A stretch of DNA of 64,000 nt, taken from assembly GCA_029948255.1 (NCBI GenBank), contig JALIZF010001879.1, positions 186,001 through 250,000 on the forward strand. Direction: 5' to 3'. The translations under genes were made by a program, and so were the position numbers. The notes beneath the pieces are model-generated. The model did not search any database. It saw nothing but the letters and a program-made list of their open reading frames with translations, and was not told the origin of the DNA. Shown here piece after piece: positions 24,788 to 64,000 of the stretch. Every line of letters starts with the position of its first letter. Within the stretch, counting starts at the first letter, position 1. Source of the DNA: Telmatactis stephensoni. Its lineage: Eukaryota > Cnidaria > Anthozoa > Actiniaria > Isophelliidae.

Positions 24788-27700
24788 CTAATATTCCAAG
24801 CACTGACCACGCAATAATTTTATCATAACACCAATGGCAATAGGTGCTATAACAAGAATATAAGCCATATAAATATAAACGCCTTTACTACTACTAGCCG
24901 AAAATTTCGGATGAACTTTTCCGTCTTTGTCTTGCCATATCCCATCTCTACATTTGTAGCTATTACCGTCCAGGAAGCCTTTCCCGTACCAGGCCTCTAA
25001 AAGTAGCAGCGGCTTTCTTGGACACAGGCCGACCACTCCCATAAAAGAACACCTTTGTAAAGGAAATACATCTGCTTTGTTCATAAGAAAGCGCTTTCCC
25101 TCTGGTATGGACAAAATCTGATGTCCTCGATCGTAAAAGTGATAGAGATCTATAAAATTACTGCCAAACAACACACGTGCAAGAGGTTCTTGGAAGGAAC
25201 ACTTGTCTACTATCTTTTCAACAATCTAGAAATGAACATAGAAACTGTAAATGCTTATTCAAATTGAATTTGCATGGATGGGGGCTAATTGAAAAGGAGT
25301 CTAGTTTGAGCAAGGGAGGGAAGTGTCCGAATGATATCACCGATACAGGAAAGAAAGTTTGAATGAGCGATCAAAGAAAGAATAAATGAATGTGAGATGA
25401 CAAGAAAATTTGAGAGTTGGGCTGAAAATGTACATTTTGGCATATCATGAAAGTGCAGTTCCGTTGTAAGATTTTTTTCAGTTCGAAGGCATGTATAGCC
25501 ACTGAAAACATTGAACAGCCATCTCAATGAAGAGAAAATGCATCCCGATTCCCCGGTTATATAATCAATATATGTACCTTCCTAGCGCAGCCGAACTTCG
25601 TTCAGTAGGTCGGGGTGTAGTTCAGTCTGTAACGCAGGGAAGTATTTCCCCTAGTGCGTAATGGTTTGATAAAATAAAAAAATCTATTGTTGTCATTGCC
25701 GTTTTCAAAAGTTTCTTTTGCTTAGATTCTTGGGTGGCCCACCAATTGGATGAAACCTTCCGAGAAGTGCTGGTCGCCTAGCGTGAAGGTACTCCACTGA
25801 ACTGTGAAGTTTGTTGAATGTATTGTTATAGTTCGCTGCACTCACTCGTGAAATATTTCTTTCCACTCGAAGATAAACTCCATATCTTCGCGCGGCTATG
25901 TAATATTTATATATTACGCTATTTATATATTACGCTAGATATAAGGTCGTGGCTAGATGGGATCCTCGCAAACAAGGTTTGGTTAGGTTTAGGGTCAGTA
26001 TTTGGGAAGACTTTGTAGAAATAAACACTCAAGTACCTTGGGGTAGGTTTAGCAAGGACGGATCCAGGATTTTTCAAAGGTGGGGGTCACGTGACGTTCA
26101 CAAACAGGGAGCCCAAACGAAAAGGTCTTAGGTCATTGAAACTCGCTGAAAATATGACATTAATTGCTTAGACTAGTGATTTTTTAACACTTTTTATTAG
26201 AAACAAAAATATTATATTTACAACTGAATGGGTAGAGGGTTGGCATTGCTTAGTGGTATTTCAATGAATGTTAAAAGAGAGTCTTTTCACAGAAAAAAAT
26301 TACTGCTGTCGCAAATTCATGACATATTCATTGATAAACACAGGGGGGTCCTGACCCCCGTGATCCTCCCCCTGGATCCGCCCTTGTTTAGGGTTAGTAT
26401 TAGGGAAGACTTTGTAAAAACAAAGCCCTAAACTAGCCCTAAACTAGCCCTAAAACTAACTGAACCTTATAATATTGGTTCTGAAACTCTTCTCAGTGAG
26501 TTGGTTGTTGATTATTTGTTTTTTAACCTGATGAAGACGACCAGAATGGCGTCGAAACGTAGTACGAGAACAAAACAAGGTGAGATTGAAAGCCCAATTA
26601 AAAAACAAATAATAACTAAACCTTGTTTGCGAGGATCCCATCTAGGCACGACCTAGATATAATTGCAAATTTAAGACCCCGGATCAAACGAGAACGCAAG
26701 ACGGCGCAAGTCAACGGTCTTGACTTGAGACTTGCTCGTTTCGTTTGAACACCGCTCAACGCAAGTTAACGCAAGTTTTTAAAAAACTGTCAATAAAAAT
26801 CAGCTAGCTGAAGGGAAAGAAGAAAATCAGTTTGTTCAGTTTTTGTTTGAATTATTTGTGAGAGGCAATGTGTAGAAGTTCGGACTAAAAGAACAAGAAA
26901 AACAACTTGCGAAGTCTAGCATGGTGACCGTTCAAAACGAGTCAAAACTTGCATCAGCTTGCGATCAAATTGCTCGCAAGTCTATGCAAGTCGATGCAAG
27001 TAGTTGCAAGTCGATGCAAGTTGGCGACCAAACGAGGGCGCAAGTCAAAACTTGTTGATTCGCGCCTAATAGTTATTAGGAAAAGCAACTTTACTTATTA
27101 AATTTTTATCGTTTTATCGTTCTATCTATCTACCAAGATTCAAGATTCAAGATTCTTTTATTATGCTGGTTTTACAAATATTAATTTAAAAAAATTATAA
27201 TTGACATATTTTAAGGCAAGGCTAATTTAACAGATAACTGATATATACTCAATCAGCTGCTGTCTTACATTAATATATTATTGGTCAAAAAAGACAGGAA
27301 TCCTTATAATAATTTAATATAAAAATTAGGTACTACCTAATAGCGGAGCTCCCATTTAAATATAAAAATAATTTTAAATACTTTGTTTTATTTTTTTTGA
27401 TGTTTTTGATTTAAATGAATTGGGCTTCCTGTGGTAATAGGCAAACAAAGATTGCATTTTGTTGTAAAAGTCGAAATAAAGATTATAGGTCAAGCTTTAT
27501 TTCTTGCCCTTCAGTCTCCTGAAAATTATAAGGCTTTCAGCCTCAGTCACCATAGTGATGCTTATTCAGATTCAGTCAGATTTTATAATTGACTTTGAAG
27601 TAGTGGTTCATAATTCTCAGAAATAGAATGCAAAAATCCCTCAAACTGATTTCATTCACATAAATACTGTTCAACCTGATTTCAACATCCTTCAATTAAA

Positions 27701-38541: not shown

Positions 38542-38588
38542 AAAAGGCAAATACTAAAACTATGAACACCGGAATGTCGAAAACCAAA

Positions 38589-38937
38589 AAAGAATAGAAT
38601 AGAATAGAATAGAATAGAATAGAATAGAATAGAATAGAATAGAATAGAATAGAATAGAATAGAATAGAATAGAATAGAATGGAATGGAATGGAATGGAAT
38701 GGAATGGAATGGAATGGAATGGAATGGAATGGAATGGAATGGAATGGAATGGAATGGAATGGAATGGAATGGAATGGAATGGAATGGAATGGAATGGTAT
38801 GGAATGGTATGGAATGGTATGGAATGGTATGGAATGGTATGGAATGGTATAGAATGGTATGGAATGGTATGGAATGGTATGGAATGGTATGGAAATGGAA
38901 TGGAATGGAATGGAATGGAATGGTATGGAATGGAATA
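38589..38937. repeat. Pentanucleotide satellite, AGAAT to GGAAT
   Basis: Uninterrupted 5-bp tandem array beginning about 50 bp past the copy D stop. It runs as (AGAAT)n, changes to (GGAAT)n, then to GGAATGGTAT units. ORFs of Met-Glu-Trp-Asn-Gly type are translations of the repeat. Confidence 0.97.
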
Positions 38938-41217
38938 ATAATAATAGTAAGAATTCCAGTTCTACGACGTATTGTTTCTTCAAGTTTCTCAAATTATGAA
39001 ATAAAAGTTGAAATAAAAGTTGAAATAACCAACAGAAAAGAAAAAACAGTTTTCCAGTTGTGTTATTTGGACGTTTCAGTATTCTGGTTTTCCGGTGTTC
39101 CGGCAATCCTGATTTTGGTACTATGTAATTTGGAAATGGCCATCTGCATAGTGTATAGAGCCTTACAGACACTTCTATGATACGGACAACACTCTTTGAT
39201 GAAGTACGTGCAGTAAAAAACAACACCCCGTAATACGAACACTTTTCTTTGTCCCTTTGTTGTCCGTATCATGGAGGTTCAACTAATAATGTACCAAAAC
39301 TTCGACTAAAACAGTGATGTCAAAAATAAAATTAGTGTTAATTTTTCCTTTCTCGACGTTCTCGAACGCCTTTCCCCATTCGCATGACTGATCACCAAAC
39401 AATAGAATGAAGTCGAGGCTGAGGTGGATAAATCTATACATTCACTGTATTTTATCGACATCAACCTCGACTTGAATCTGTTGTTTTCTGTTTAGCTATG
39501 CAAATTCGGAAAGGTCTATACGGCTACTATAAACAGAATTTGACTTGTCTGTGTGCGGCGAGAAGCATAGTGCATTTGTAGATTGCTTTTCTATTCACAG
39601 AAATGAATCGAAAAATGATATTGTACCTGTGAACTGCGTAGGCAGATCAGTCGCGAAATTCTATATATTTATTAAAGATATAGTGCACGCAATGACGAGG
39701 AATTCCACCAAGCAAGTTGTTGTCTTGTCTCTCCGCGTCTCTCCGCGTGCTGTACCGGCCCTGCTGGCAGAGAGATTTTCCAAAGTTTACCCTCGCTCTT
39801 CGAGAAGCTTTAGAAAATCCCTTTGCCAAGAGGATCAAGAGGGCAGGTATATAATAGACTATGCACTGTACTGCGCGGCGTGCAGTTTTTAATTTCATAT
39901 CAAGGTTATATTTTACAAGCTATTCGGTAATGTACGTCCCGATTCTTTTTCACCGTCTCGCATCGTCAAACGAAACAAACAAACATTTCGAGTAATTATC
40001 TCTCATGCTTGAAATAAAGGGTTTGCCATAAGCACAGATGATGAGCTGTTTTATTGTTGATTGAGAAATAAAGAAAATATTCTACATCAGGGAAAGAGAC
40101 TTGTTAAAAATGAAATGATGACTAATAGGGCGGTGAACCGAAACCGCACATTAGGGAAACCAGTGAATCGTTGCGTTTTACAGGAGCCCATAACTAGGAG
40201 CGTCCATGATGCATTAGGTTCGCTCACCGCATTTTCGCATGATCGTGCCTATTTTAACTCGTGGATTGCAAATCTACGAGTTATAGTGAGGGGTCGAAAT
40301 ATGCAAATGTATCACTCGCAAATTGTTTAAACTATGTTACTGCGCATGCTCGACGTGAATGAAGGCAGGCCGAAATTTACGGGACTCCTGTGTTATTCAA
40401 ATCACGATGCATCAGGATTGTATGTGAACAGAACGATTCTGTAAACAAGGTCTGGAGTGTTGAAATTCTACTCGTGACTCCGTGGAGCCTTCAAGATGGT
40501 CAGATGATTGACACGACAACTTCTTTCATTAGTAAGATCATGCCTAGAGTAGAGATTCCTTGACTTTCCTGGGACTTTCCTCGTGCTCACACTTCGGTAT
40601 TAAGATTGGATGTGTCGGATCAGTTAGGGGGAAACTTGCTGATAGTTAATTTATTATTCCTTGCCACATTTTGTATTGTACTACTCTGCTTGGAATAACT
40701 TTCATCGCATCTCCATTGAGCTGTTCGATATTCGGACGTGAAAACCTTTCTGGGTGGACTTTGTACGTCGCTGTCAAGCAACAAATCGTCGCAAGTCCAA
40801 AATCAAAGTCATCCAAGCTTTTAGTGTTGTACTTTATCACCACGCGAGTAAATGTTAGAATAAAAAGCAAACAAAAACATTTTGAGTACAAACTGCCGCC
40901 TGAAACAGCCTGAAACTGGCCGTGAGTCGAGCCGCTAGTTTGTGTTTGTACTATTTGATCAAAATGCAAACATGATGTTTCATTTTATTCACCGTAGCCT
41001 TTGACGAGTCAGCTAATATTGTAGCTGTAGGCAAAACTTGTGTAACTTGGACAAAATAACACAGTGGATCTAACTGACTTTTTGTAAAATCTGGTGTAAT
41101 TGATTGACTGTACACGTTGAAACGCATGTTGTAACAAATATAAATACTGATAAACGAGAGATTTATATACATTGTACGTATGTGATGGAATTGTATTTAT
41201 CTGATTCGTTTGATCTA
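38938..41217. other. Intergenic, no gene supported
   Basis: Contains weak hairpins at about 39408-39475 (AGTCGAGG ... CCTCGACT) and 39756-39850. The overlapping opposite-strand ORFs at 39545-39898 look like nothing known and are probably chance. Confidence 0.45.
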
Positions 41218-46892: not shown

Positions 46893-49800
46893 TGAAGATT
46901 TGGAAATCTAACCCGGAAAATTTTCATAGCCCCCATTTTGACCTTGTCGATTATTTTAGGCCCCCCTCTTATATGAATAAAAACTTGAGGCCCCCCCCCC
47001 TTTTGACCATCCCAAAAATTCAGAAGCCCCCCTTAACATCTTTTAAAAATCAAAGGGCCCCCCTTGAAATCTTCATGCCCCCCCTCGTCATATTAAATGA
47101 ACCTTCCCTTATATGTGACGATGTGTTCACAGTTCAGTGTGACAAACCCTCTGAGTAATGATCTGCTTTTGTTTAGAAAGTTATTGGACTATAATTTGTC
47201 ATTATTCCTTTGAGATACTCGCAAATTTTTTGAAGAGTAAAATCAAAAGAAAACAATCATTCTCTAGATTGAAGTTTGTCATTCATGAATTGGGAAAAAA
47301 TTGTGTCACATGGATTAGGTCTATTGTGGGTTGGTTGCAGTTGGTTACTAGTAACATATATCTTCAGTTGACATAATGCATCTCTGTTTAATAATTGCAC
47401 TTTTTCACAGTTTTATGCTTACAATGTTGTGCGTTGTAATTATTAGACATCCCTAAAGGTATTGAACTACAAGATGTTGATCTTACAGGTATGTCAATAC
47501 AACAAACCTAATCTTATCTTAGCATATTTTCCAATTATTATTAACATTTTAATCGTAATATGATTTTGTTAATCAACAGAACAAGAGAGTGTCTTTTCTC
47601 ATGCTCACAGTGGTTTGCAAGCTATACTGGAATTAGTGCCCACGTAAGTGTTTACATCAGTGGTGCATTTAGGTCTAACTAAAAGCATGGTAAATTGGCC
47701 TCTATGGTCCAGTGCAGTCAGGTCTAACAGAAAAAATGATAAGATGACCTCTGTGCAGTTGTCAGTGTTATAAAAGATGTACTGTGGAACAGCTTTAACC
47801 CATGTATGTTATTTTTATTCTAGAACACCAAAGTTTTTACTCCCAGTTTTGTCAGACTATTTTCCTTACATCAAGAAACGTAAAATTTACCAAGTAAGTA
47901 GTGGAATTCTTGGGACACTTAATTCTAATCAAAGTACACCTTACACTTCTATGTTTAAGCTCATTGCCAATAGATGAGTTTGAGATGGAGTACCACCCAG
48001 AGGGACTGGCATAGACAATCCAAGTCCTTAAAGGAAGTCACCATGACAACCATGCCAGCACCTCATACATACATGCACCATAAACACCCATCACATAGAG
48101 TAAAAAGATGCCTACCTACTAGTTGCACTCTCCAGACGAGGGCAGGACTGGGTGGGGCACTGACAAATTATCCGGCAAATTATCCCTCCCTCCTTCCATC
48201 CATCGATTGATTTATTTATTCATCCATCCATTCATCCAGCTATCCATTCATTCATCAATCCATTCATTCACCCATCCATTCATCCCACCATCCATTCATT
48301 CTTCCATTCATTCATTCAATAAAGCTTTTCTTGTATTTACAGACAAGCTACATCAAGAATCTACTTCGCATCACACACTACCTACCTTTACTTAGGGAAG
48401 AAATTCTAGAGTGCATCATTAATCATATTACTAAAATAGATGTGAGTACAGTGAATAATTTTACAAAACTTATTTGTACAGAATTCCTACTCTGTAACAA
48501 ATCCATGATAGGAATCCCAAATGGAACAAGAAATCCATGGGAATAAAATTGACAGCTGAGAGGTGTGAGGTTTTTTTGAAATTTTTGAAATTTGACTTTT
48601 CTTGTGATATGAGTTTTGGGGTTGCATATTTCACTGTGGCCTTTTATGGCCTTGCTCTCCACTTGTAATTAAGTAAGCTTGTGGATTTTCTCATTATGAG
48701 GAAAAATGTCAGTCATTTTTTGGATTGCATTGCACACCTCATTAGTATGTAGTTTTACTCATGCTCACTTGCATGTCAAAAGTGGCTTATAGAATATTCT
48801 ACTGAGTACCTGAGTAACCCCCTCTGGGGGATATAGTTACAATGTCAACATTCTTTGGAGAGCACTTTTTGATGAAGTTCTTATTACCAGTATTTATCAA
48901 CATGTCCCTTTTGGATATTGTAACTCGAATTGTAGCCTCCGTTGCAGATGTCTTTTGTAGTTCGCTGAAAAGTGGGAGCTTTTTGGTGAACTTAGTACAA
49001 AAGACGTCTGCAATGGAGGCTACTTGCATTGCAAGTCAGTGGAATTTTCTAAACTAGAATGTAATCTATTAATGATGTAAGGTTGAGGTTCCAAGACATG
49101 AGCTTGAAGAACCTGAAGAAGAAGATGCCACTCAGTTTGAAGTGGACCTGGTAGGTTAACATTGTGTGAAATGAGAAATTGTATTCCTCCCTTCCTTCCT
49201 TCCTCCCTTCCTTCCTTCCTTCCTTCCTCCCTCCCTCCCTCCCTCCCTCCCTCCCTCCCTCCCTCCCTCCCTCCCTCCCTCCCTCCCTCCCTCCCTCCCT
49301 TCCTCCCTCTCTTCCTCCCTCCCTCCCTTCCTCCCTTCCTCCCTTCCTTCCTTCCTTCCTTCCTTCCTTCCTTCCTTTGTTTGTTTATTTATTTATTTTG
49401 CCCATGGTGTAATACCTGGAAAAGCTGTCCTGTGTTGAGTATTGTGTATATTTGATTATAGGAATCCAAGAAAGTGGAAGAAAATAGTCAATTAGAAAAC
49501 CAGACAACCCTAGTAAATGAAATGGGAGAAAACTTGGATGCATTAATGGAGATGTTGTATATTTATATTAGAGATTTATGTCATGTGGATGGTAAGGACT
49601 GTGTTTTTCATAGCTACGATCTGAGTTTCAAGAACTAAAAGGTTTTTAGTTTGACAGGTTTGAATTTTTTTCTTAGGTAATTATCTTGTTGACTCTGGTA
49701 CAGAATTATTTCATCAACTTATAACAGTAAGTGAAAACAATCAGTTCTCATTTCCATTTGACCCTCCTTTCATGCTTTTCTACCTTCTTTCAACAGCTTT

Positions 49801-52800
49801 CATAAATCTAGCATTGTATCCATCCAATTTTATTATTGTCAGTTCATTTGTTTGTTTGTTTATTTATTTGTTCATTCATTCATTCAATTATCTGAGTGTA
49901 TAGTCAGTCAGTCAGTCAGTCAGTCAATCAGTTAGTCAGTCAATCAGTCCGTCCATACAACCGTTCATCTGTCTGTCCATCCATCCGTCCGTCCATCAGT
50001 CAGTCAGTCAGTCAGGGATTATATGTAATTTGCCATCAACATTGATCATTTTTTGTTTCTTTCAAGGTGTATGAAAGGATTATCCTACCAACACATGCAA
50101 GCTGTCATGTACATTTTATTGTCTTCTACATCTGTAATATTGATCAGGTACTCCAAGGAGTATACCTTACCACCTATATAGTATACATCATAAAATATAT
50201 CTTTATATCACTGCCAAAACTGATAGAGCAGTTTTCGTATGAGTGGGAAACTGACCGTACCAGTTACGGTCAATTCACGGTAAGGTTACGGTAGGATTTT
50301 CGAATGTTTTTGTCGACATTACGATACTGACACGGTCACGGTACGGTACGGTCAGTTTCCCACTCATACGAAAACCGCTCTATCTCATAGCATTGAGAAG
50401 GCATAGTTCAGTGACATTATCTTTAGCCTGTGGTCCACTTAATATAATATATTAGTTTGGAAAACAAAACTATTGATAGAATTTTTTTTATTTTTTTCAG
50501 ACTTTTGCAAATTCTTTTTTAGATTTATGTTGGAAAAAGGTAAGCTTATTATAATTCACGTTGGCATTAAACGTGAAAACTGTTTTCAAATATTTTTCTT
50601 TAAAAAGTGGCTAAAGTGTTCCCATAACTCCTTCATCACATTCTTTTACTTCATGTCTCTCATTTCCTGTTCCTTCCCTTCTTTGTGTTAACCCTCTTTT
50701 TTATCCATACATTTCCTTTCTGTCATCTTCCTATTCTCTGTGTACTTTCTTACCATCTCCCTTCTCCCCTTTTTCCAAACCATACACTTTAGACGTCCAT
50801 TATACTCTATTATATTTAGATTGAAAACCCAAATGTCCCAGCAATACTGCGTCAAGCAAGTGCAGCATACATGGCAAGTTTTGTAGCCAGAGCTAAATTT
50901 ATTCCAATAAGGCAAGTAAATAAGTCTAAAACTATGTCCCACACCAATTCATGTGTTTCAAATCAAATTCATGTGTATTTGTTGGAGAGATAGCGGCAAG
51001 TAATTTTTATTAAAAAATTCTTTTAAATCATTTTATTATATAATAAAATCGCCTATGGCTCGTGCTCCCCTTACACTTCTTTTGTGCCCTTGTCACTTCC
51101 TGCATGCTGTATTACTGAATGGAGTACAGAAAAAAATAAAAAAATTCTTTTAAATTATTTTATTATACAATAAAATCGCCTACGACTCATGCTCTCCTTA
51201 CACTTCTTTTGTGCTCTCATCACTTCCTGCGTGCTGTATTACTGAACGGAGCACGGAAAAAGCTGTTCTATTTGTTAAATTGTATACTGTACATTTTCTC
51301 CAACAGCACTGTTAAACTGTGCATGGAGTTGTTGGTTCATTGGATACACAGGTATGATTTAAACACAGTATACAAAGAGTAATTTAATTGTCACACTTCC
51401 TTGTTTTGAAATATTCCTATTACCAAACACCTGCTCAACACATTATACTAATTGTTTATTCTTGTAGCTATATTGACGTCCATGATGCAAAGTGTGTTGG
51501 ACCAGATGCAGCCAAGCATGGCCCATTTTACTCTGTTTGTCAGGTAGGTTGCCATGTTGATATTCTGATAATCTTGCATCCAGACAAGTAGTATCCTTAG
51601 TTTCTGTACTTACATTGTGTTTTGCTTGGCTCACATATTAAGTGATGCAAGAAAAAGCACAAGCAACATACACAGACTCAGTATTGCATTTATCACTTAG
51701 GCATAAAACATTTAAGCACTGCTATAAATTATATAAGCAGTACATTACTGAGTCTGTCTGAGTCTGAGTGTGAAGCATGCTTACATGTATGTTTTGCTTT
51801 GGACTGGGAGTGAATAGTCTAGGTATTATTAAATTCAATGAACATTTAGTATTAGTAACAAAAATACTACATAAGGGTATATTCTTTGGACAGCCTTATA
51901 CATCTTGTATAGAGTACTTAGCTGGAACTCTATTTGATTATTCAAGAGATTCTCATATTTTCCCTTGCCAGGCACTGTTATATATGTTTGTATTCAGACA
52001 TCGTTCTTTACTTGAGCTTGAAGATGGTAGGTACAGAAACAGGGTGGGGTACTATACCAAGGACTTCTGTTTTTGGTTGCTTGTGACCCCCTTGTATTGT
52101 ATTTAAGATATAGATTTGATTCATCCATGCCTCTGTATTCTAATAGATGCAACAAATTGAGTTGACTGTTGTCACCACATTCTGACATCTTCTGTACAGT
52201 CATTTATTAGAGAACAGATGCAAGGAGAAATGTAATCTATTTATTATTATAATACTTGTTTTTATGTTTTTCAACCAGTCATAGTGCACGTAATATTCTA
52301 TGACATGATCTTTGTGTGTTTGTACAGTTCTCCACCAATGGAGTAAGGAGGAGATAAAATGACATTGACAAAATTATTGGCGAGAGTGACAACCCTGAGT
52401 CCCTCCCCTGCCCCTCTCCAAAAGAAAATCCTGCTCATTTTCAATCTGACTGATTAATGGGTGTTTCTTAGTTTAAAGTATCCTCCAAGAAGTGGAAAAT
52501 AAGAAGGTAAAGCACTAATATTTAGTGTGATTCCTTCTGCTTAAAGCTGGTCTCCCAGGAAGTTAACAGTGTGCTCCCCTTCTCCCTCCATCAGTGCTAT
52601 TGCTTTAAGGGTATTTAAAGCAACACAGAATGGAAAAACGTCAAACAAGTGTGAGGTGATTGGGAATTGAAATTGGGACCTCAACTTAGCTACACTTGCT
52701 CATAGAAGCAAGTGCTACGTGTATGAGCAAATGCCTTAGTAGTTCATCCTTTATCCATCCAGGTTACAATTTTGTGAGAAGACTCAACTTTGAAAGAATC

Positions 52801-55008
52801 ATAACATGCAGATTGAATCCCCTTAAGGTGTGTAACAGAAACTACAGTGTTATTGATAATTAATCAGTTATTTAAACTGCAATCAGTTTAGTTGCCAATG
52901 CACACATCCAAAAAGCAACTAAAATTTCCATCAATTAGATTGTCAGAAAGAGCTTGGAATGCTGCTTTTGCATACTTCTAACCATGGAGTACCTTGAAAA
53001 GTGGGGGGCTATAGTCTCCCTGGCCTTCAGTCTCCACAGTCCCTCCCTGTCATTAATAATTCCTACTGATAACTGAGACTTGTTGATTTCAGGTTTGCCT
53101 GCCAACCATTGTGAATCTGTTTGCTCATATTACAAGGTACATGTTTGTGGTATTTAAAGCTAGTTAAAGCTACACAGAATAGAAGGACGTTGAAACAAGT
53201 GTAAGGTTACAGGGAATTGAATGCGGTACCTCTCACTCTGAAAGCAGCACAGTAACCAACTGAGCTACGCTTGCTTAAGTCATGATTCAACAGTGACACT
53301 ATTGGACGTCTGCTGTGCCAAGTCTGCTCTTTTATTAACTTGTATCTAAGTTTACAGTGTACTGTCTTGTATGTGATGTGACTAATGGTGTTTTTCTTCC
53401 CTTCTAGTCGACATCAGATAGTATTGTGTTACACAGTCATTGAGCGAAATAAGCGGTCCTTACTACCAATAGCATCTATACAGTCCAGTAAAGCAGTATC
53501 ACATTTGTCAGTCTTCAATCAGCTTGATTCATTCTTCCCATTTGACCCCTATCTTTTACACAAGTAAGATACACAATCATACCGAGTGCAACCCCTATTA
53601 AGTTGCCACCCTGGCCTCTAAAGCAGCCAGTTATCAAAGTCCTGAATCAGTGATACTGTAAAATATAACTCCTATTAATTTATGGGCCAACCCTTATTAG
53701 GTGGCCTCTTGGCCATTCTAAAAGGGTGGCTGCTTAATGGGGGTCACACTGTATTTATTTGTAAATACATTTATGCAAAAATTTAAGGGTTATGCATTAC
53801 ATTTCTTACAGTTGCATGTTTAACTACTGACACCAACTTTTAATGCATCGTTATGTTTAAGGCTGCCCAGTGTAACACCACATTTAGTTTTACTTTTGTC
53901 ACTCTTTATGTAGAATGATATGATTGTCTTTTTATTGATAATCTGTAAACTTGTCTTTCTTTGCTCTATCAGGTCAGGTAAATTCATTAAACCTTTATAT
54001 CAAGAATGGGAAGGCATTGAGGAGGACACTACTGATGTACATGATGAACTGGCTGAAAAGACTAAAGATTCAGAAAGCGAGGTTTGTATAATTTGTTGAA
54101 TGAGAGTAAAATATACTATGCATATTCGGTTTTCTGTGTAAATTTAGAAGCTGCACGTTCCAATTTCATTTAAGGTGGTAATATTGAAACTCAATCTTTA
54201 TCCAGAATTCTGCAGGAGCACCTAGCTGTGGTTGGTGTTTTTGGCCAACTGCTGCGGTCTCAAACCTGATTTTCAAAGTGTCACGAGGAAAGTGGGACGT
54301 CCAATGGTCTAGGCAAGACTCTGCAAGGCCCCAAAACATCATAATTTTTGTGAGCCCAAGTGACTTTTTTCACAGATTTTCTTTGTGTTAAAAATTTGCA
54401 GCCCTGAGATGGCTTTTTGCAAAAAAATGCAACACCCATGAGATTTGACCCAAATTTTGTGACTGACTTTTTGACGCTAAAAGTGGATCGGGAGGGAAGG
54501 GGATGACCCCTGACCATCTGAAAATCAGGCTTTGGTATCTCGAGCACTGGCTACTTTTGTTGGACAAATTATAGAGCAGATTTCGTATGAGTGTGAAACG
54601 GACCTCGCCATGCCGTGTCCGTGTCAGTGCCGTGTTGTTTATAAAAACATTTGAAATTACTACCGTAACTGTGCCGTGACCGTGTGGTGTCATTTTCACA
54701 GTCATACAAAATCTACTCTACTGCCCTGTATAAAATAATGATGACTCATGCTCCAGACACTCCTTTTGAAAGTGCCAGGTACTTACTTTAAAACTCTGGA
54801 GAACAGTACATCATAGATAATTTATTTATCATTCAATTTATTCTAGGATGAAGAGGATTACATGGAGTATGGGAAAACACCAGATATTGATGTGCCAGGG
54901 CTTACACCTGATATATCCATGTGTATCTCACCTGGATTTGTTGTATCTCCAATGGAATATGAGGCCAGGAATCATCATGGTACACACAGGGCGACCAAGC
55001 ATACATAA
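43791..55008 (+). CDS. RRN3: RRN3 (TIF-IA), RNA polymerase I initiation factor
   Basis: 22 exons, 628 residues: 43791-43952, 44223-44279, 44829-44918, 46105-46234, 47447-47488, 47580-47643, 47824-47893, 48343-48441, 49082-49150, 49462-49591, 49677-49726, 50067-50147, 50501-50539, 50820-50911, 51307-51351, 51468-51543, 51972-52026, 52763-52827, 53093-53136, 53408-53563, 53973-54081, 54847-55008. All phases agree. RRN3 bridges Pol I and the promoter selectivity factor to start rRNA transcription. Family marks: FLMTLVSAQTFYLKACL, ILPTHASCHVHF, KHGPFYSVCQ, LNFERII..LNPLK, YTVIERNKR and LDSFFPFDPYLL; then an acidic stretch and short tail. Length is close to human RRN3. Intron 14 uses a GC donor (50912). 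The first exon is poorly conserved, so its start is the least certain point. Confidence 0.95.
44290..44600. repeat. Imperfect inverted repeat in RRN3 intron 2
   Basis: TGTGTGCAGATTTAGAGCAC and GATTGATCAGAGCATGAG are mirrored by CTCGAGTGTTTTGATCAATC and AGTGCTCTGCACAC. A (GT)n tract follows at about 44530-44545. Confidence 0.6.
45187..45335. repeat. Palindromic MITE, family M1 copy 3
   Basis: In RRN3 intron 3. Ends TAGAGTAGATTTCGTATGAC and ACGAAATCTGCTTTA. Same sense as copy 2. Confidence 0.85.
46440..46626 (-). mobile_element. tRNA-derived SINE, copy 1
   Basis: Read on the minus strand, it has a Pol III A box (TGGCACAGTTGG, 46617-46606) and B-box-like GGTCCAGAGTTTGATCCC (46580-46563) at tRNA spacing. 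A non-tRNA body with TTTAAGTAGCTTTAAATA follows. In RRN3 intron 4. Confidence 0.8.
46838..47115. mobile_element. MITE with GGGAAGGTTCATTTAATATG ends
   Basis: Inverted ends AGGGAAGGTTCATTTAATAT followed by GACGGGGGG, mirrored at 47085-47110. The interior holds a G tract (46862-46890) and C tracts. In RRN3 intron 4. Confidence 0.85.
48182..48326. repeat. (ATCC/ATTC)n microsatellite
   Basis: Imperfect tetranucleotide tract ending about 16 bp before RRN3 exon 8. Confidence 0.9.
49183..49400. repeat. (CCTT/CCCT)n microsatellite
   Basis: Long pyrimidine tetranucleotide array in RRN3 intron 9; the Ser-Leu-Pro-Pro ORFs over it are artefacts. Confidence 0.95.
49855..50015. repeat. (GTTT)n and (CAGT)n microsatellites
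   Basis: Adjacent tetranucleotide tracts in RRN3 intron 11. Confidence 0.9.
50224..50382. repeat. Palindromic MITE, family M1 copy 4
   Basis: In RRN3 intron 12. Ends TAGAGCAGTTTTCGTATGAG and its mirror CGAAAACCGCTCTA are complementary throughout. A slightly diverged subfamily (GTTTTCG for ATTTCG). Confidence 0.85.
51013..51262. repeat. Two-copy tandem duplication, about 130 bp
   Basis: Units 51013-51137 and 51145-51262, both with AAAAATTCTTTTAAAT, TAATAAAATCGCCTA and a TGCTGTATTACTGAA tail. In RRN3 intron 14. Confidence 0.85.
52110..52230. repeat. Short MITE with TGCNTCTGTATTCTAATAGATGCA-like ends
   Basis: In RRN3 intron 17. Left end CCTCTGTATTCTAATAGATG, right end roughly its mirror (TTATTAGAGAACAGATGCA). 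Same family as 12726-13055. Confidence 0.6.
52560..52740 (-). mobile_element. Diverged SINE, copy 2
   Basis: Shares the body (TCCATCAGTGCTAT, TTTAAGGGTATTTAAAG, CACAGAATGGAAA) with copy 1. Its tRNA-like part is disrupted. It ends about 25 bp before RRN3 exon 18. Confidence 0.55.
53150..53277 (-). mobile_element. tRNA-derived SINE, copy 3
   Basis: Minus-strand A box AGCTCAGTTGGTTA (53266-53253) and B-like GGTACCGCATTCAATTCCC (53230-53212), then the shared TTTAAC/TTTAAATACC body. In RRN3 intron 19. Confidence 0.75.
54572..54720. repeat. Palindromic MITE, family M1 copy 5
   Basis: In RRN3 intron 21. Ends TAGAGCAGATTTCGTATGAG and CATACAAAATCTACTCTA. Same sense as copy 1. Confidence 0.85.
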
Positions 55009-56409
55009 CCAAAATCACATACACAGGGTGACCAAGTATACATAACCAAAATCCAAGAGAGCAATGGATATGCAGACACTAATCATGTGTTCCATCCTCA
55101 AAATAACATTGAATCCTTAAAATTATATTGAATTATAAATATAAATATATGAATAACTCTGGTTAGAACACCAAAGTGTCATTAGATGGTTATCAAGACC
55201 CAATAACTTTATAGGTCAGTAAATTACTTACCCATTAAAGTTTTTGGAGTGTTTCTCAAAGAATGTACGTACAGGTAGAGAGTTCAGGTGCCAAAAAAGA
55301 CAGGCAGTGAGATTTGGTCAGCACCTGCTAGAGGTACAGTGTACTGTCCCCACCTTAAGGGGTGACTGCTTTGAGAGAATACTACTACAAAAAATTTTTA
55401 CCTTTAATATTTATTTTAATACAAAACTTGTTAGAGAAAATTTATAAATTTACATAGTGCATACTAATATTTACATAATGTTAATATGTACAAATGGTTG
55501 TATTGGTGATATGCTTGCTATTGGAGGCCTTTTTAAAGGGATCACACATGAAGAAAGGATAAGACTGCTGAGCCATACGCAGTTGTGTACCGGTACCAGA
55601 GGTTTATCTCATTTTATCCTCGTTAATTTATTTGCAAGCTGCTCAACAGCAAATGTCAACAGTTGCGTCCCTTGAAATGGGTATTGGGATTTTTAACAAT
55701 TCATTTCTTTTGCATATATTATTTGAATTTGTTATATAAAATGCAAAGTGGTGTTAATATTGTTTCTGTATTCATGAAGGGTGGATAGCACCCCCACCCC
55801 ACCTCTGATATGATATGGGGTGAGTTTCTCTAAAGATTAGATTAACTACCCCTGGATAACTGTATCAGTTATACTTTGCTATTCAGTTGAGTGTGGCACG
55901 ACAAGTTTTATCCATAAGTTTGCAAGTTTTAAAATGATAGTTGTTGAGTAAAATTAGCAATGTTGTTAGGTGAATCCGTGGGAATTTTTACCGTTAAATT
56001 TAAATATATATATATGTGCATTTCATTCAAAGTTCTTGATTCTCCTTGACAACATAACGTTTTGACATCAATTTGAGAAACATTTAACGTTGATGACATC
56101 GATGAAACTCTAGTCGCGCCACACTCAACCAAATAGCGCAGTAAGATATTTAAATGTGATAATTCTTGGATGGGGTAGATCTAGGCCTACAACTATACTA
56201 ATGCTGATGAATTAGAAAACGCATCGTTTAACCACCGTTTTTGCTATCAACACTTAAATGCAGATTTAGCGTACGTGGAGAAAAATTAATAAGTAATTTG
56301 GGGTTCCTGGAAGACAAAAAAAGATGCATTTTCAAGTTTATCGGGACTAGTGTGCACGTTGCCTGGCCTGAATTAAGAATAGAAAGCCCTAAGCGTCACG
56401 TACATGGGG
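55009..56409. other. RRN3 3' flank, no gene
   Basis: Contains the RRN3 3' UTR, whose end I cannot place. No other exon recognised. Confidence 0.5.
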
Positions 56410-56565
56410 AAAAAAAAGCAGACGGCAGAGAGGATCACGTGACCTGCTTTTTACGCGCCTGGCGATGCGCGTTTGGCACTAAATGTGAGCATGACCTTTG
56501 GCGTTTACGAATTACTTATTTCCCGCCATAAAAGCAGGGCATGTGATCCTCTCTGTCGCTTACCG
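56410..56565. repeat. Inverted repeat
   Basis: GCAGAGAGGATCACGTGACC is mirrored by GCATGTGATCCTCTCTGTCGC about 110 bp on, with partly complementary sequence between. Confidence 0.65.
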
Positions 56566-56597
56566 TGTGCATGAAGCTAGAGCTCTTTTGTATATCC

Positions 56598-56795
56598 TGG
56601 GGGCCGTTTCTCGAAAGACGCGATAACTTTACGGCTGCGAAAATTTACGAGAAGCATTACGGGACTGCGCGCGCGCACACATACGTTAACATGCCTGAAA
56701 CAAAACAAAACAAAACCGTGCGTTTTGAGTAACTTTTTCGTGTGCATTAACAGACCCGTAAAGTTGTCGGGTCTTTCGAGAAACGGGCCCCCGGT
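56598..56795. repeat. MITE abutting the OLD-like stop codon
   Basis: Ends GGGGGCCGTTTCTCGAAAGA and TCTTTCGAGAAACGGGCCCCC with GTAAAGTT-type subterminal matches. Its right edge is about 8 bp past the minus-strand stop of the OLD-like gene, so it must lie within that gene's 3' UTR or terminator region. Confidence 0.85.
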
Positions 56796-56802
56796 TGGTT
56801 AG

Positions 56803-59172
56803 CTATTCAAGATCGTGTAAAGTCTCCTTGAAAAACCGAATAATAAAGTAAATACATCGTAATATTTCTAAATTTGGCCCTTTTCTCGCTTCCTTTGACT
56901 TGGGGTCTTTCAAAAGCAGTTTTTTGGGGTCCAACAATGAAATGATCAGTTCTTTCAGCTCCGTAGTCAGCATGTCAGGCCAGAGTTTCTTTCCAAACTG
57001 CGATCTTGTCAATCGTACCGCATCCTCGATCTCTCCCCCCATGAGCCACCACGTAAAGAAGTACAATTCCTTGTCGTAAAATCTCATCACTTCGCCAACA
57101 TATCGCAACGATTTAAGTTTGGCTATGAGACCTCGTTCCGTCTCGTCGATGGCTTTAGAAGCTGGGCTCTCTTCCTCGTCCAACAACTTTGTCTTCGCGC
57201 AGGGTATCTTGGCGATATACCAATCTCCTTCACACTTCTCGAACTGTGATAACACAGAGTTCTCGCGCGAGTTTGGAATGATGGCATCTAAGTCACAAAT
57301 GACGGCGTAAGGGATCCTCAAATCGCGACAAATGGCCGCACCCTTCCACATATTCTTTTTCCCGCCAATGGACAGCACTTTACAGCTTCGTACCGCTTCT
57401 TGAACGAGGCTGAGCTGTTCTTCAGTGAAGTACTGTCTTTGATATTCTGGTTCATGGAAGAGTGTCGCGATGTAGGATTTGTACGATTGCGGGAAAGGTC
57501 CAGGGGATGGGCTTCTCGATCGCGAACCGTATTCCTCGGCATCCGGATCTTTGTGAACTGTAAGTGTCTTATTGCTAGATTCTGTGAGAGCCTTCCATAG
57601 ATCGCTCTGTCCATCATCAAAGAGCCCCAGCAAAGCTTCAATGAAGCGTTTATCACTTTCTCCCTCGACCCAGATAATATGTCTAGAGAAAAAGATTTCT
57701 CGTACTTCGGCCCCACCTATGAATAACAGCTCCCTCTCCGTATATCTGGACGTCACTTTACGTATCTGACAGTAACCGCTCGGCAACAGTTGAAAACGTA
57801 AAATTAGCGTAATCCTGTCGACATCCAGAAGTTCTGGAGAGTGGGACACGGCGATTATGCATTTACGCCTCTTAACGGATTCGCGCATTAGGATATTTCT
57901 TAGGCGTCGAATTTGCAACGGGTGCATCCCGCGGGTTGGCTCGTCTAAGATGATGTTGCGGGATTGAGGATTGACCAATAAGGCAGCAATTATGAAGGCA
58001 GAGAAAACACCCTCGGGTATTCGTCTCATTGTACGTCCTGTCTTTGTATCTATGACTTGAAAACTTTCTCTGGACGAGGACTTGAGATCAAAATTAAAGG
58101 ACAGGGATTTGGTTCCAATGATTTCATGGAAAAGAGAATGAATGTCTTGGAAGTTTCCTGTGGGAAATCCACGCAAAAGATCTGATACTATTATCTTTTT
58201 TAATTCATGATAGTTTGACCAAGCTAGGCCACCAAAACTTGACAATCTTTTGTACGAGTGACGATGGACTGCTGGGTGACTGACAGGGGTACCCTGAGGA
58301 TCTATAGCAACCATATCATCCCTATGCATTATGCTCAAGATACCACCATCTACTTGAGAAGAAAGTTGTGATTGGTCATCTGTTTCCATAGCAACATTAT
58401 TTGGCATGGTAGCCATGGTAACATCTCTTGAGTGTTGTGTTACCATATCATCATAGTGAGCTTGTAGAGTCGAGTCCAGACTACAGCTTGAAGCACTTCT
58501 GGAAAAACTATCACTTACATAAGGAATAGTCACAACATTTATGAGAAATGAATGTTGAGGGACCCAGTCCATTGGGTTAACCCCCCCTGGTAAAGGCTCA
58601 TGAAATCCTGTGACTAGTGTCCCCCCTGATTTGGTCACAACAAATATCCCATCCTCCATGATAATGTACAAGAACTGTGAATTACACAATCTGTCTGCAT
58701 CAACATCGTCAAAGGCTATAGAATACTTGGCTGCACAAGGTACATGTCTGTGGCCAATAAGAACTTGTAATCGTGAAGATGTTGTATTGCTGCAGATCTT
58801 TTTAATTGGCTCTACAAGTGGCTCAGGAATTTTAATCAGTTCATCACAAAACCATGAACTTAAGCCTGCAGACAAACATGGAGTCTGCCCAGCTGCATTA
58901 CCACAAGTATCGCATAATTTCATCAACTCTGTCTTGCTAAAATCAAACTGACAAACTGCTTTGGAAACTCCTAGGTCATTGTATAATACTTCAAAGTCAG
59001 GACCTTCTTCTTGAAGATTACAAGCTGCCTTGATTAGAGCTACCATACTACTCTTGCCACTTGCATTTTCACCAACAAATGTGTAGAAATGGCATCCATC
59101 TTTACCAGATAAGTCAAGTTCATGGCGCCCTTTGAAGATAACATAGTTCTCCACAACAACTCGCCGAAGCAT
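56803..59172 (-). CDS. OLD-family-like nuclease: ABC ATPase plus TOPRIM
   Basis: One uninterrupted frame of 789 residues. The N-terminal ABC/SMC-type ATPase has Walker A GENASGKSS (34-42), a signature-like PEGVF with AFIIAALL (387-397), Walker B NIILDEPT (406-413) and an SHSPE switch with His444. Then comes a TOPRIM domain: WVEGESDKRF (catalytic-type Glu503), SIGGKKNMWK (601-610) and CDLDA (Asp627, Asp629). That order and those motifs are the OLD endonuclease plan, known mainly from bacteria and phages (OLD, Gabija GajA and relatives), where ATP-regulated nicking is used in phage defence. Two regions look inserted: a Ser/Asp/Met-rich stretch (about 220-310) and an Arg-Ser-Pro run (549-559). 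There is no membrane or signal segment. A possible 5' UTR acceptor sits about 35 bases before the ATG. A role in animal DNA repair or immunity is only inference. Confidence 0.85.
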   Translation of the reverse strand: MLRRVVVENYVIFKGRHELDLSGKDGCHFYTFVGENASGKSSMVALIKAACNLQEEGPDFEVLYNDLGVSKAVCQFDFSKTELMKLCDTCGNAAGQTPCLSAGLSSWFCDELIKIPEPLVEPIKKICSNTTSSRLQVLIGHRHVPCAAKYSIAFDDVDADRLCNSQFLYIIMEDGIFVVTKSGGTLVTGFHEPLPGGVNPMDWVPQHSFLINVVTIPYVSDSFSRSASSCSLDSTLQAHYDDMVTQHSRDVTMATMPNNVAMETDDQSQLSSQVDGGILSIMHRDDMVAIDPQGTPVSHPAVHRHSYKRLSSFGGLAWSNYHELKKIIVSDLLRGFPTGNFQDIHSLFHEIIGTKSLSFNFDLKSSSRESFQVIDTKTGRTMRRIPEGVFSAFIIAALLVNPQSRNIILDEPTRGMHPLQIRRLRNILMRESVKRRKCIIAVSHSPELLDVDRITLILRFQLLPSGYCQIRKVTSRYTERELLFIGGAEVREIFFSRHIIWVEGESDKRFIEALLGLFDDGQSDLWKALTESSNKTLTVHKDPDAEEYGSRSRSPSPGPFPQSYKSYIATLFHEPEYQRQYFTEEQLSLVQEAVRSCKVLSIGGKKNMWKGAAICRDLRIPYAVICDLDAIIPNSRENSVLSQFEKCEGDWYIAKIPCAKTKLLDEEESPASKAIDETERGLIAKLKSLRYVGEVMRFYDKELYFFTWWLMGGEIEDAVRLTRSQFGKKLWPDMLTTELKELIISLLDPKKLLLKDPKSKEARKGPNLEILRCIYFIIRFFKETLHDLE

Positions 59173-61333
59173 GCTGGAATTATATGAGCTAGATACTTTT
59201 CACCTAAACTAGAAACAAAAATACACAATTATTTTGAGTGTGATTATGCCATTATCTAATAGTTAAAGAGTGAAAGTTTATGACATCATAGAGTTGCTAT
59301 GCCAACTGCACCACACCTATTCCCATATCAGGCAGATCAGGGATCATATCAGGTTATAAAGGTACGTCATATTATAACCATGGCCCTACTTATAAAACAT
59401 TTTTGATTAACTTAATTCAAATAAATTGGCTTCTAATTATGTTATTATATTATTCAAAGTGTCGATGAAAATGCTGGCCTTTTGCAGTATACACATGAAC
59501 AGTCGATGTACGTATAAGCTGCCAGTACAATCAGCACAAGTTAATCATATCAGATTAGTTTAGTGCCAGCTGGATGACAAATATAACTGTTATTGCTTTA
59601 GTCAAATATCACTTTGCAGTCATATTAACCAAAGCTATACTTACCATTTTACAGAAAAGAGCAAATAAACAGAAAGTTGTCATATGCAAACACGATCATG
59701 TCCCTATCCTGTACATTTTGTTCGTTAGGTCGTTTCTGGTTGCTTTTAAAACGATCTTAAAAAAAAACAGTGTTTTGTTTAGGAGGAGAGTTTGTAGGGT
59801 TCACGTATTACCAATCGATTGATTCAGCCAGCATAATACGGCCACGTTTGCTGAGCTGTTATATCTTGTTCCGTGCGATCCGTGCAAATTCCGTGAATAA
59901 ATATAGAATGTGCTGAGCAGCCAAACACACAGGAAGCCCAATTTCACACGTGGGGTCTTCCCGTCTTATACGTCTGCAGCATGCACGATAGAAACGATTC
60001 ATTGATTAATTAGATCTCCCAAAGAAAAAAGACAAGACCAAAGGTAGAGTTTGTATTAAATTAATAAAAATCTCGTTGGATGTATGTTGGTGGACGTGTA
60101 TAAAGTGGAGAATAATAACAATGACAGGCATATTTTGAGAACTTTTTACTTCTGCTGATACTCTATTAAATCTTAAGCTTAAAATTAAATCAACTTGTTT
60201 TTAACAAATTAAGCTGAAATGTATAATGCAATATGGCACAATACTTTGTTGCAAGAGGGTGGCAAAGGGCTTTGCATGACCAGTAATTGCACCAAAACCA
60301 CTATATGATCAGTGAATGAACCATACAGGATGCTATTTTATAACAAGAATAACCTAAGCATGATTACATCAAAATTTGCCATGTGTTGTCTGATAAGCAC
60401 CAAATTTTCATGGTGTGATCAGTACCCTCCTTGCTACCCTGTCTGCAACAATTGATGTGGCATAGGAAAGGGGCAGATCCTGGATTATCTTCAGGAGAGG
60501 GTGCACCGGCAGTGCACCATCATATAAACTGGAAACTGCTGAGAGAACATTTTGGAAAAATATTGAGAAAAAAGGATTCTTAGTCATCTCAGGAGGGGGT
60601 GCACACCCCTCCCCTAAATCCACCCCTGAAGAACCTTAATTAGTTAAAGGGTATGTGTTTTTGGGAGACTGTGAAATGTCTGATAGTCACTGATATCTTA
60701 ACTTGGTTGTCCATATATTAGTTGACAATCAACCAAAGTGTTGGTTGACTGTTGACAGACTCATAGACAGCCAACCATGGACAGACATATAAGTCAAGAT
60801 AAATGTCAGGTGATTATCTGTCCACAGTTGACCAATATGTACATGTAGTTGACACTGATACTTTACTTACATTCTACAATTACTTATTACCAAAACTGTA
60901 ATGGCCAATCAGTAGTTGATATGTTGGTTTATAGCTGACCAACACACCAGCTGATATCTTGACTCGCGCTACCCATAAAGTACAATACTTGATGCAACTT
61001 AAACCTGCAGCTAATTTTATATCAAATTTCTTTCCTCAGTAGAACTAAATTATAATAATAATTATATTTATCAGCTAATATTTAACATGTTCTTATGAAT
61101 GTTTGTTTGTAGGTACAGGGTGCACAATAGGAAGGAATGGTGGAATCTATATAAGATAGCTACTCCATATACATTGTACGGTATCAATCATTTATAACTT
61201 AATATTTGAGCAATAATATGTAGTCTCTTTTAACTCTTGGCTTAGCATTTGCTACTTGACTGATGGCAGATGTCATCTGGAGGTCCATTCATATGCTTGG
61301 TAGAATTAGGTTTATATCTAACCATTATAATAA
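59173..61333. other. Between the OLD-like gene and WBP2; no gene
   Basis: Should hold the OLD-like promoter and WBP2 3' UTR. A GTGCACCGGCAGTGCACC and GGTGCACACCCC repeat remnant lies at about 60470-60630. Nothing else recognised. Confidence 0.5.
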
Positions 61334-63436
61334 TTAGACATTTTTCTTGTTTTGTGCAGAGTATGGTGGTGGTGGAGGCTGTTGACAAGCAAAAGTAAGG
61401 AGGTAAAAAACTACCTTAAGATTACAACTATTTTTAACAACAAAATTTAGCAAATTTTAGCGAGTTCTTCAAAATCACTAAAACTTGGTACTTGCTTGGT
61501 ACTTGGGTGGTGATTCCTAGTAAAATTATAGGCATTTGCCTTTAATCTCCAACTAGAGAAATTGCTAAATTTTTTATGTAGTCACTAAAAACAGTGACGT
61601 TAAGGCACATGTATATTGTAAATAATTTACATGTGTATATAACCATTTGAGTCATAACATTGTCATCATGATCATCATCAATGATATTATTGCCATCACC
61701 TTCACAACATAATGGTGCAACAAAAGAGGAAATATGCTTGTATCGTCATCATCATAATCATCAACATCATCTTCATCATTATCATATCATATAATTATAT
61801 CCAATATTACCTGATTTGCAGGAACATAGACATTTTGACCAGAACTATAAGCTTCTTGAGCTTTAGCACCTAAAACAATATATTTAATAATTTACTTGAA
61901 TGTGAGTGAAAAGATAATTTACATGGATTTGACATTGTTTGGAGAGAATTTGACAATAGAAATCAATTAATTTTCACAGGAACTGATTAATTTTACCTCC
62001 AGGAAAGTCTGGTGGAGGAGCTGATGGCTGGGCTGATGGTCCTGATTGTCCAGGATAAGGTGGTGGATTTTCCTATGAACAAAAAATAACAACTGGTGTT
62101 ACTATGAGATATCTGACATTCAGAGATTTTGCTGCTACATTGTAGAGTAGAATGCCAGGTGTTTGGAGTAATAATAATAATAATAATATTTATTATTTCT
62201 ATAGCACAAATTCCATGCAAAATTATGATCAAATGCGCTTAGAAGTACAATCATATATGAATAGGAAGTGAGCTAACAGGAAACAATGTGTGATGGATGA
62301 CTACAAGAATAAAATCACAATACATGCAGGTAAACATTTACAAGTAGCATTTTATGCAATATTGAGTACTATCAACTTGTAGCCTATTTGTGTAGCACTT
62401 CTCAGTGAATGGGGAAGCTAAGGGAGAAGGAGAGGAGGGGGAAGGTGTTTCATATTAATACTTACTGGGGGTCTGTAAGGTGGAGGTTGAGCAGCTGAAA
62501 TGCAAAGCAAACGTCTTACTCAGTGGTTGGAATTTCCTCAAAAATGAACCGATCCCATGTTACAATTGTTATTCTCACAAACAATGAAAATATTAATGTC
62601 TATCAGCAACTTTCATGTCTAATCTAAGCAGTAGACTGAATACAAGTCCCTAAATTACAATAATCAACACAAGACCCACATAGCCAGAAAGAGCACATCA
62701 AGCTATACAAAATCCTGAAGTTTAGGGTTAATTGGGTCAACAAATGACTTACAGCCATTCAAAAACTGTAGTCTTCACAAAGAAATTTATGGATTATTGG
62801 GATAGTCACCACATTCCATACATTTCTTTGTGGGCCTTGTGTTGATTATCATAATTCAGGGACTTATATCCAGTGCTGTGCCCAGACATGAAGGTCATAA
62901 ATATTGTAAAAAGTATTATATACATCAAAGAATTATCATAACTATAGTTACTAAATAAATCAAAAGTGGCATTACCATAGTAGCCAGCTGGAGGAGGTGG
63001 ACCATAGTATCCTGGCTGGGGTGGTGGAGGACCATAATATCCTGGCTGGGGAGGGGGAGCGTAGGGAGATTGGTAAGGTGGTCCATTGTAGTATCCTGGC
63101 TGTGGGGGTGGTTGTGGGTTGTTGTAGATACCAAATGCTTGCTGGCCTGCTGGGGGCATAGGGTGGGATCCTGGTCTGTTTGCTGCAAGAAAAAATGTTA
63201 TCATAATAAATCAGATTAAGTATGTTGTATGTAGGTTGCATCTTATCTTTTATGGTATTATAATAATTTGTGAAACTCATGCAGTCTTGTCATTCTGTAG
63301 GACAAATGCATTGTGCAAGTATGACGATTATTATCAACCATACCTGTTTGGACGGCCTGTCTGAAGTGTTCAGCAAACTCTATTGCACCACCACTGTTGA
63401 AAGTAATATTGAACGTCCCTCTTCCTTGCCAGTTAC
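61334..63436 (-). CDS. WBP2: WBP2 (WW domain-binding protein 2), 3' part
   Basis: Minus-strand exons 63436-63344, 63182-62976, 62494-62466, 62072-61997, 61869-61811, 61378-61334; all GT-AG and in phase, ending in TAA. The first visible exon holds the end of the GRAM-like domain (TFNITFNSGGAIEFAEHFRQ, matching the TFTAGGAIEF block of vertebrate WBP2). Then comes a proline-rich tail with QPGYYGPP repeats and three PPxY motifs (PPPYRPP, NPPPYPG, PPPPYS), followed by a SGQNVYVP segment as in vertebrates. WBP2 binds WW-domain proteins such as YAP and Nedd4-type ligases through PPxY. The N-terminal GRAM exons are missing because the gene continues past the right edge. Confidence 0.92.
62160..62200. 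repeat. (AAT)n microsatellite at a LINE-like end
   Basis: AATAATAATAAT followed by ATTTATTATTTCTATAGCAC, resembling the 3' end style of the LINE at 17880. In a WBP2 intron. Confidence 0.6.
62695..62880. repeat. Diverged relative of the 24263-24667 palindrome
   Basis: Shares AAAATCC-GAAGTTT, TTACAGCC-TTC, ACAAAGAAAT-TATGG and its mirror. In the WBP2 intron before the proline-rich exon in minus-strand order. Confidence 0.6.
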
Positions 63437-64000
63437 CTGCATTAGAGAGTTAGCAGCAGTATGATTATGTCATGGTTTAACTTTCTTCCATTGGTTCAAA
63501 TTTATAAGGTTAGTTTTTGGCTTAATGGTGGGCAGATGTACATAAATTATTTAGAAATATGTACTCAATTTTATATCAATTCAAAGACTAATTCAATTTT
63601 GAATTCAGTTTAAACAATGAACTAAAAAAATAAATAAAACAGTAGAGTTATGAAGTTTCAATATTGTTGTGAGAAATCTTTTCAAATCTTTATCATGGTG
63701 ATTGTCATCATCAACATATATATACATGTAGTAAGGTAAAGTATTTATTTAATAAGCATGGTAGCCTATTTAGCAACTAGGTTAATATCCTGAGTGGCCC
63801 TGCATATAAACAACTTAACTAGTACACTGGGTTTTTTATGCTTTTTTTACTGTTTTTTTTTTTACTGTTTTTTTTACTGGGTTTTTTTACTGGAGTTTTT
63901 TACTGTTTTTTTTTTTTTACTGTTTTTTTTTTTTACTGGGTTATTTTTACTGTTTTTTGTTTTGTTTTTGTTTTTGAAATAGGAGCATGGCTTTGAAAAA
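63437..64000. other. WBP2 intron with (TTTTTACTG)n tract
   Basis: No exon of the GRAM domain seen. A T-rich repeat with ACTG spacers occupies about 63838-63975. Confidence 0.5.

Follow-up and report, generated by a model that had tools for sequence, protein, structure and literature searches.

The bacterial OLD classes characterised so far are described as implicated in antiviral or phage defence (PMC12796447, PMC10568477). Class 1 proteins (Thermus scotoductus OLD, 6P74, and phage P2 Old) stand alone, class 2 proteins such as GajA of Gabija have a helicase partner, and class 3 includes the OLD effector of retron Eco8. The target proposed for Gabija is linear DNA that is not engaged by RecBCD, as described in PMC12407980. 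We analysed a 64,000-nucleotide stretch of DNA (the window) from the sea anemone Telmatactis stephensoni, positions 186001-250000 of the 1,131,876-base contig JALIZF010001879.1, and found a gene at 56803..59172 on the minus strand that encodes a complete OLD-family ATPase-TOPRIM nuclease, predicted to be very probably active. The animal proteins are already public as uncharacterised entries carrying the Pfam domain; the novelty is the unexpected host of a known family. An earlier reading made from the letters of the window (the sequence-only reading) knew of no characterised animal member, and we found no paper describing one in the open-access literature, among the matches listed (titles and the starts of abstracts, with subscription papers mostly outside that scope).

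The gene is complete in one open frame of 789 codons. The ATG is at 59172 and the stop codon ends at 56803, as expected from the 789-residue frame in the sequence-only reading, where the strand was not stated. Plus-strand frame 1 has many stops across 56803-59172. The start codon is backed by relatives that open with identical or near-identical residues (MLRRVVVENY and variants), as well as by a stop codon in frame, 27 bases 5' of the ATG. The coding sequence is intronless.

The protein (P0001) belongs to the OLD family. It scored 46.5 bits with Pfam AAA_21 (cut-off 27, E 6.7e-12) and 37.7 bits with OLD-like_TOPRIM, PF20469 (cut-off 23.2, E 3e-9), with AAA_15 below its cut-off. Because these two scores exceed the cut-offs and 32 of the 33 aligned family members match each model, we take the motif residues to be family signal rather than chance. 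The top PADLOC models were ATPase-Toprim_I-B, mad3, AriA and Old. Single-sequence searches of NCBIfam and PDB returned ABC transporters intermixed with OLD proteins, since the ATPase domain is common, and a profile of 33 relatives placed Thermus OLD second among PDB chains (1.9e-7), flanked by ABC transporters. HMMER aligned Glu503-Asp507 opposite VEGYGD of Thermus OLD (an 18.6-bit stretch) and Asp627-Asp629 opposite its DED (12.0 bits), each weak alone. The N-terminal ATPase is of the ABC/AAA_15-AAA_21 type and carries Walker A, Walker B and the switch His; the C-terminal TOPRIM is of the OLD type and carries the Glu, the Gly and the DxD. We consider the family assignment, made from the sequence, to be firm, and the proposal of an OLD-type nuclease in a cnidarian is supported by profile, profile-profile, structure and relative searches.

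The predicted model resembled solved OLD proteins across both domains in structure searches. The retron Eco8 OLD effector was second in the Foldseek ranking (5.7e-11). In the model the TOPRIM part folds like the TOPRIM of OLD proteins, and placement in a non-TOPRIM family was not found in this check. There are low-confidence stretches in the model, the longest at residues 246-318 and 533-558.

The active-site residues are conserved throughout the family. We counted conservation over 33 aligned rows, using as denominator the rows with a letter at the position; all coordinates here are on the minus strand. Every residue named by the sequence-only reading (Walker A, Walker B, His444, Glu503, Asp627 and Asp629) is present in the translated frame. 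In the ATPase, Walker A is GENASGKSS (residues 34-42, 59047..59073), with Gly34, Lys40 and Ser41 in 30/30 rows and the region missing from three rows. Walker B is NIILDEPT (406-413, 57934..57957), with Asp410 and Glu411 in 32/32 rows, and is followed by Met416, His417 and Pro418 (MHP), each in 33/33. The stretch RIPEGVFSAF (384-393, 57994..58023; Gly388 in 31/31 rows) resembles an ABC signature and may serve as that motif. The switch His444 (57841..57843), part of HSP, is in 33/33 rows. The TOPRIM and C-terminal helical domain covers about residues 491-789 (56806..57702). Its EGESD motif (57652..57666), in the context WVEGESDK, has Glu503, Gly504 and Asp507 in 33/33 rows each, and Asp627 and Asp629 of the DxD motif (57286..57294), in the context CDLDA, are in 32/32 rows each. 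Conserved residues beyond those listed by the sequence-only reading were Asp507, the three acids Glu714, Glu716 and Asp717 of GGEIED (712-717, 57022..57039; 31/31 each), and Lys728 and Lys729 (56986..56991; 30/31 each).

These residues can be compared with the two-metal site described for Bp OLD, in which Glu400, Asp455 and Asp457 bind metal A, Glu404, Thr506 and Glu508 bind metal B, and Lys562 is the lysine (PMC6755086). By TOPRIM motif and by alignment with Thermus OLD, Glu503, Asp627 and Asp629 correspond to the metal A residues, and Asp507 occupies the place of Glu404. In an alignment read by eye, two bacterial relatives, L023 and L037, have GRLED and GEIDD opposite the anemone GEIED, and for this reason we take Glu716 as the candidate metal B glutamate, equivalent to Glu508. 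Under that reading Thr506 has no threonine counterpart in the anemone protein. Lys728 or Lys729, the candidate catalytic lysine, would be equivalent to Lys562.

The anemone gene most resembles a stand-alone class 1 OLD, since the scanned neighbouring frames showed neither a class 2 helicase nor a partner of retron type, although operon context means little in an animal. The gene differs from class 1 OLD in being animal-borne, in its 17% identity in structural alignment, and in its length (789 residues versus 528), its model having low-confidence stretches. In contrast to GajA, which has a helicase partner, no UvrD-like helicase was among the 14 neighbouring open frames scanned, the only frames covered. 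The NCBIfam model of the retron Eco8 effector matched at 2.5e-6 and 26.4 bits, far below its cut-off of 250. No retron reverse transcriptase was seen among the scanned frames, and an Rfam search at gathering thresholds was empty; the sole reverse transcriptase found in the window is in a retrotransposon-like polyprotein about 35 kb away. Archaeal Cran1 is likewise described as an OLD-family ATPase-nuclease retained through its lineage (PMC12796447); its host is an archaeon, and we liken it to the anemone gene by description, not by sequence. Matches to SMC/Rad50 heads cover the ATPase only, whereas the anemone protein adds a TOPRIM domain and its model has no long coiled-coil helices.

The family is also present in other sea anemones and in a stony coral. 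A search of 5.8 billion proteins gave 35 matches at E 0.001. The closest named relative is LOC116307981 of Actinia tenebrosa (71% identical), followed by LOC5509623 of Nematostella vectensis (63%; longest contig 16.4 Mb) and LOC111321911 of Stylophora pistillata (50% over 63% of the query), a 608-residue model without the N-terminal part that bears Walker A. An alignment search added three members, one of them marginal. A search with the C-terminal part at E 10 gave 30 matches, all already found, and its reach was short: it missed P0032-P0035 (38-43% identical there) and P0036 (most of the region absent). No named member outside the hexacorals was found in the three protein searches, which miss distant relatives: all require shared five-letter words, and in the full-length and alignment searches scoring was limited to the candidates with most words in common. 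The 33-row alignment was drawn from 39 proteins (P0001-P0039), omitting P0010 and P0012-P0015, which are near P0009 in score and length, and the marginal P0039. In a tree of 30 of these rows, P0032-P0035 were apart from the 26 others, and the window protein fell among P0002-P0005 (P0004 is the Actinia protein), with the Nematostella protein next outside. We infer vertical inheritance.

The locus has the features of resident animal DNA. It lies in the interior of its contig, and a protein search of the same genome (483,535,264 bases, 1782 contigs) found the gene once. Frames with PAN, COLFI and LicD domains are 20-26 kb from the gene, and an MFS_2 exon is 2.7 kb past the high end of the window, about 7.5 kb upstream of the gene. 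CpG depletion is expected where methylated cytosines decay in the germ line. The observed/expected CpG ratio was 0.08-0.34 in the first 900 nucleotides of the gene, and the surroundings were depleted as well (52-56 kb for the most part, 60-64 kb throughout). The gene looks long kept in sea anemones and corals, not like contamination.

Some parts of the region have a normal CpG content. The CpG boundary is inside the coding frame, near nucleotides 900-1050. A stretch of about 2 kb at 56001-58000 (ratio 1.0-1.4), which takes in the 3' part of the gene and the flank downstream of it, is set within the depleted region 52000-64000. Upstream of the gene, a 400-base spot at 59601-60000 (1.06) coincides with a GTAAGT donor at 59644. 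With a TTTTTGTTTCTAG acceptor ending at 59209, this donor would delimit a possible intron in the 5' untranslated region (59209..59644, minus strand), suggested by sequence motifs only, and the spot may be the promoter and first exon with that intron behind it.

We looked for a close prokaryotic donor in assembled contigs, viral contigs, phages, plasmids and bacterial genomes and found none. A candidate in the assembled contigs (at least one match listed) was rejected as a donor, its frame being read as an ABC-transporter ATPase. There was no family match among 600 pattern matches in viral contigs and none in phages. One plasmid record encoded an OLD-like protein, with the match covering 16% of P0001 and 19% of P0034. 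A profile of the C-terminal part of the family gave one match (E 0.07) on two fetched records and a single weak one (66 positions, 21.8 bits, E 1.2e-4) on 398 genomes of a bacterial phylum in which 28 of 199 sampled genomes have the Pfam OLD TOPRIM.

Distant bacterial kinship was detectable. Among 38 open reading frames from fetched bacterial OLD TOPRIM loci, L023 scored highest with the anemone-family profile (E 1.8e-17); at L023:529-2493 is a bacterial ATPase-TOPRIM protein of 654 residues (PADLOC Old, 7.1e-23). Seven of the frames were judged, with no domain search, to be neighbouring non-OLD genes and were dropped from the second tree and from the local hhalign comparison; four of the other 31, short or motif-less, were omitted there and from the global comparison, leaving 27. 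Local hhalign of the family profile against these 27 rows gave 99.6% (E 5.6e-25, 227 columns, 16% identity), spanning the ATPase into the TOPRIM domain, and the seven neighbouring frames, as a control, gave 2.0%. Global hhalign, with the seven still included, gave 99.9% (E 3.2e-32). Both trees united eight family rows with L023 and L037. The join to L023 was weak in the second tree (87/51) and a meeting of long branches was flagged in both, so we claim no donor, and the tie of the family to any one prokaryotic group is not firm. The sequence-only reading suggested that the gene was either kept or acquired; because no close prokaryotic donor was found, we do not choose between these.

We favour constitutive surveillance in the animal's own cells, directed at DNA ends or aberrant DNA (broken, viral or transposon), a role to which we give about an even chance. 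The protein would work as a homodimer, with the ABC-type ATPase heads gating a two-metal TOPRIM site at which DNA is nicked or degraded. As proposed for P2 OLD and Gabija, it would act on DNA unengaged by the repair machinery. The gene is found once, is conserved, and is CpG-depleted over its 5' part, which fits constitutive expression, and on this basis we prefer surveillance to an induced antiviral effector or a role like that of Cran1.

Several results weigh against this reading or parts of it. Whole-model TM-scores in Foldseek were low (0.31-0.35 by query), the C-terminal half alone reached only E 1.1e-3 at best, and in VIA the Thermus OLD was at row 43 of 50, after SMC/Rad50 heads that match the ATPase alone. 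A genome-wide PF20469 search at E 0.001 did not recover the resident gene itself, and a search that misses a known gene is of no use for counting paralogues. The 3' part of the gene, from about nucleotide 1050, is not CpG-depleted (0.9-1.4). The assignment of Glu716 to the second metal, and of Lys728 as the catalytic lysine, is indirect, and the DNA-end role is drawn by analogy. Activities are described as differing among characterised OLD proteins (PMC10568477), and archaeal Cran1 is described as a cell-cycle nickase-ATPase whose gene could not be deleted (PMC12796447).

It is possible but unlikely that the gene encodes a dedicated effector, inducible and aimed at viruses or transposons, and so represents a prokaryotic immune nuclease recruited to the innate immunity of animals. 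The defence role implicated for characterised bacterial OLD classes (PMC12796447, PMC10568477) and the best PADLOC models would fit such an effector. However, no known defence-system partner gene was among the 14 neighbouring frames. Immune families often expand, whereas this gene was found once in the genome. Body methylation leaves broadly expressed invertebrate genes poor in CpG, and the 5' depletion here resembles theirs rather than the pattern of inducible genes.

We rank below this, as improbable, a housekeeping chromatin or cell-cycle nickase like Cran1 with no defence role. The Cran1 clade is described as tracking the species tree, with a nickase-ATPase gene that could not be deleted (PMC12796447), and conservation across several hexacorals is seen for the animal family too. 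However, Cran1 forms a separate archaeal clade (PMC12796447), and no named member outside the hexacorals was found in our searches, which miss distant relatives. An ATPase regulator with a dead nuclease is very improbable: in Cran1 it is the ATPase rather than the nuclease that seems critical to the function examined (PMC12796447), but Glu503, Gly504, Asp507, Asp627 and Asp629 are invariant wherever a row has a letter at the position. An assembly join with DNA of a bacterial contaminant or symbiont, which an intronless coding sequence in a family typical of prokaryotes might suggest, is rejected with near certainty, as no such join was found and the locus is interior to a 1.13-Mb contig with animal-type exons, shows CpG depletion, has named relatives at 71% (Actinia) and 63% (Nematostella, where the gene is on a 16-Mb contig) and a family tree that groups it with them, and has no close bacterial match among those listed in the contig search or in the 398 genomes.

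Returning to constitutive surveillance, we tentatively suggest, at somewhat less than an even chance, that hexacorals took in a prokaryotic immune-type OLD before the split of anemones and stony corals and that it may serve as an intrinsic DNA-sensing nuclease against viral, transposon and mis-repaired DNA. If true, animals would have their own equivalent of P2 OLD or Gabija, one that works with no helicase or retron partner. An apparently intact nuclease from a phage-defence family is now in laboratory-tractable animals, and a knock-out of the Nematostella relative LOC5509623 is feasible. Either a defence or a genome-maintenance role would show how animals employ prokaryotic conflict-system enzymes.

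The window has several other features. Directly past the stop codon, an imperfect palindrome at 56596-56794 (two 58-nucleotide arms, 78% complementary, with an 83-nucleotide spacer) looks like a small inverted-repeat element. The retrotransposon-like polyprotein frame is at 18782-21385 and has reverse transcriptase (end only), RNase H and integrase domains. A sequence of 2,062 bases is present in two identical direct copies, at 21912-23973 and 27315-29376, 5,403 bases apart. They may be the long terminal repeats of a young element; a recent duplication and an artefact of assembly are the other possible origins. A GGAAT-type five-base repeat array at 38563-38993 is open in several frames on both strands, and a simple repeat at 49023-49452, within a stretch of strong GC skew, has RKEGRKEG-like and SLPPSLPP-like frames.
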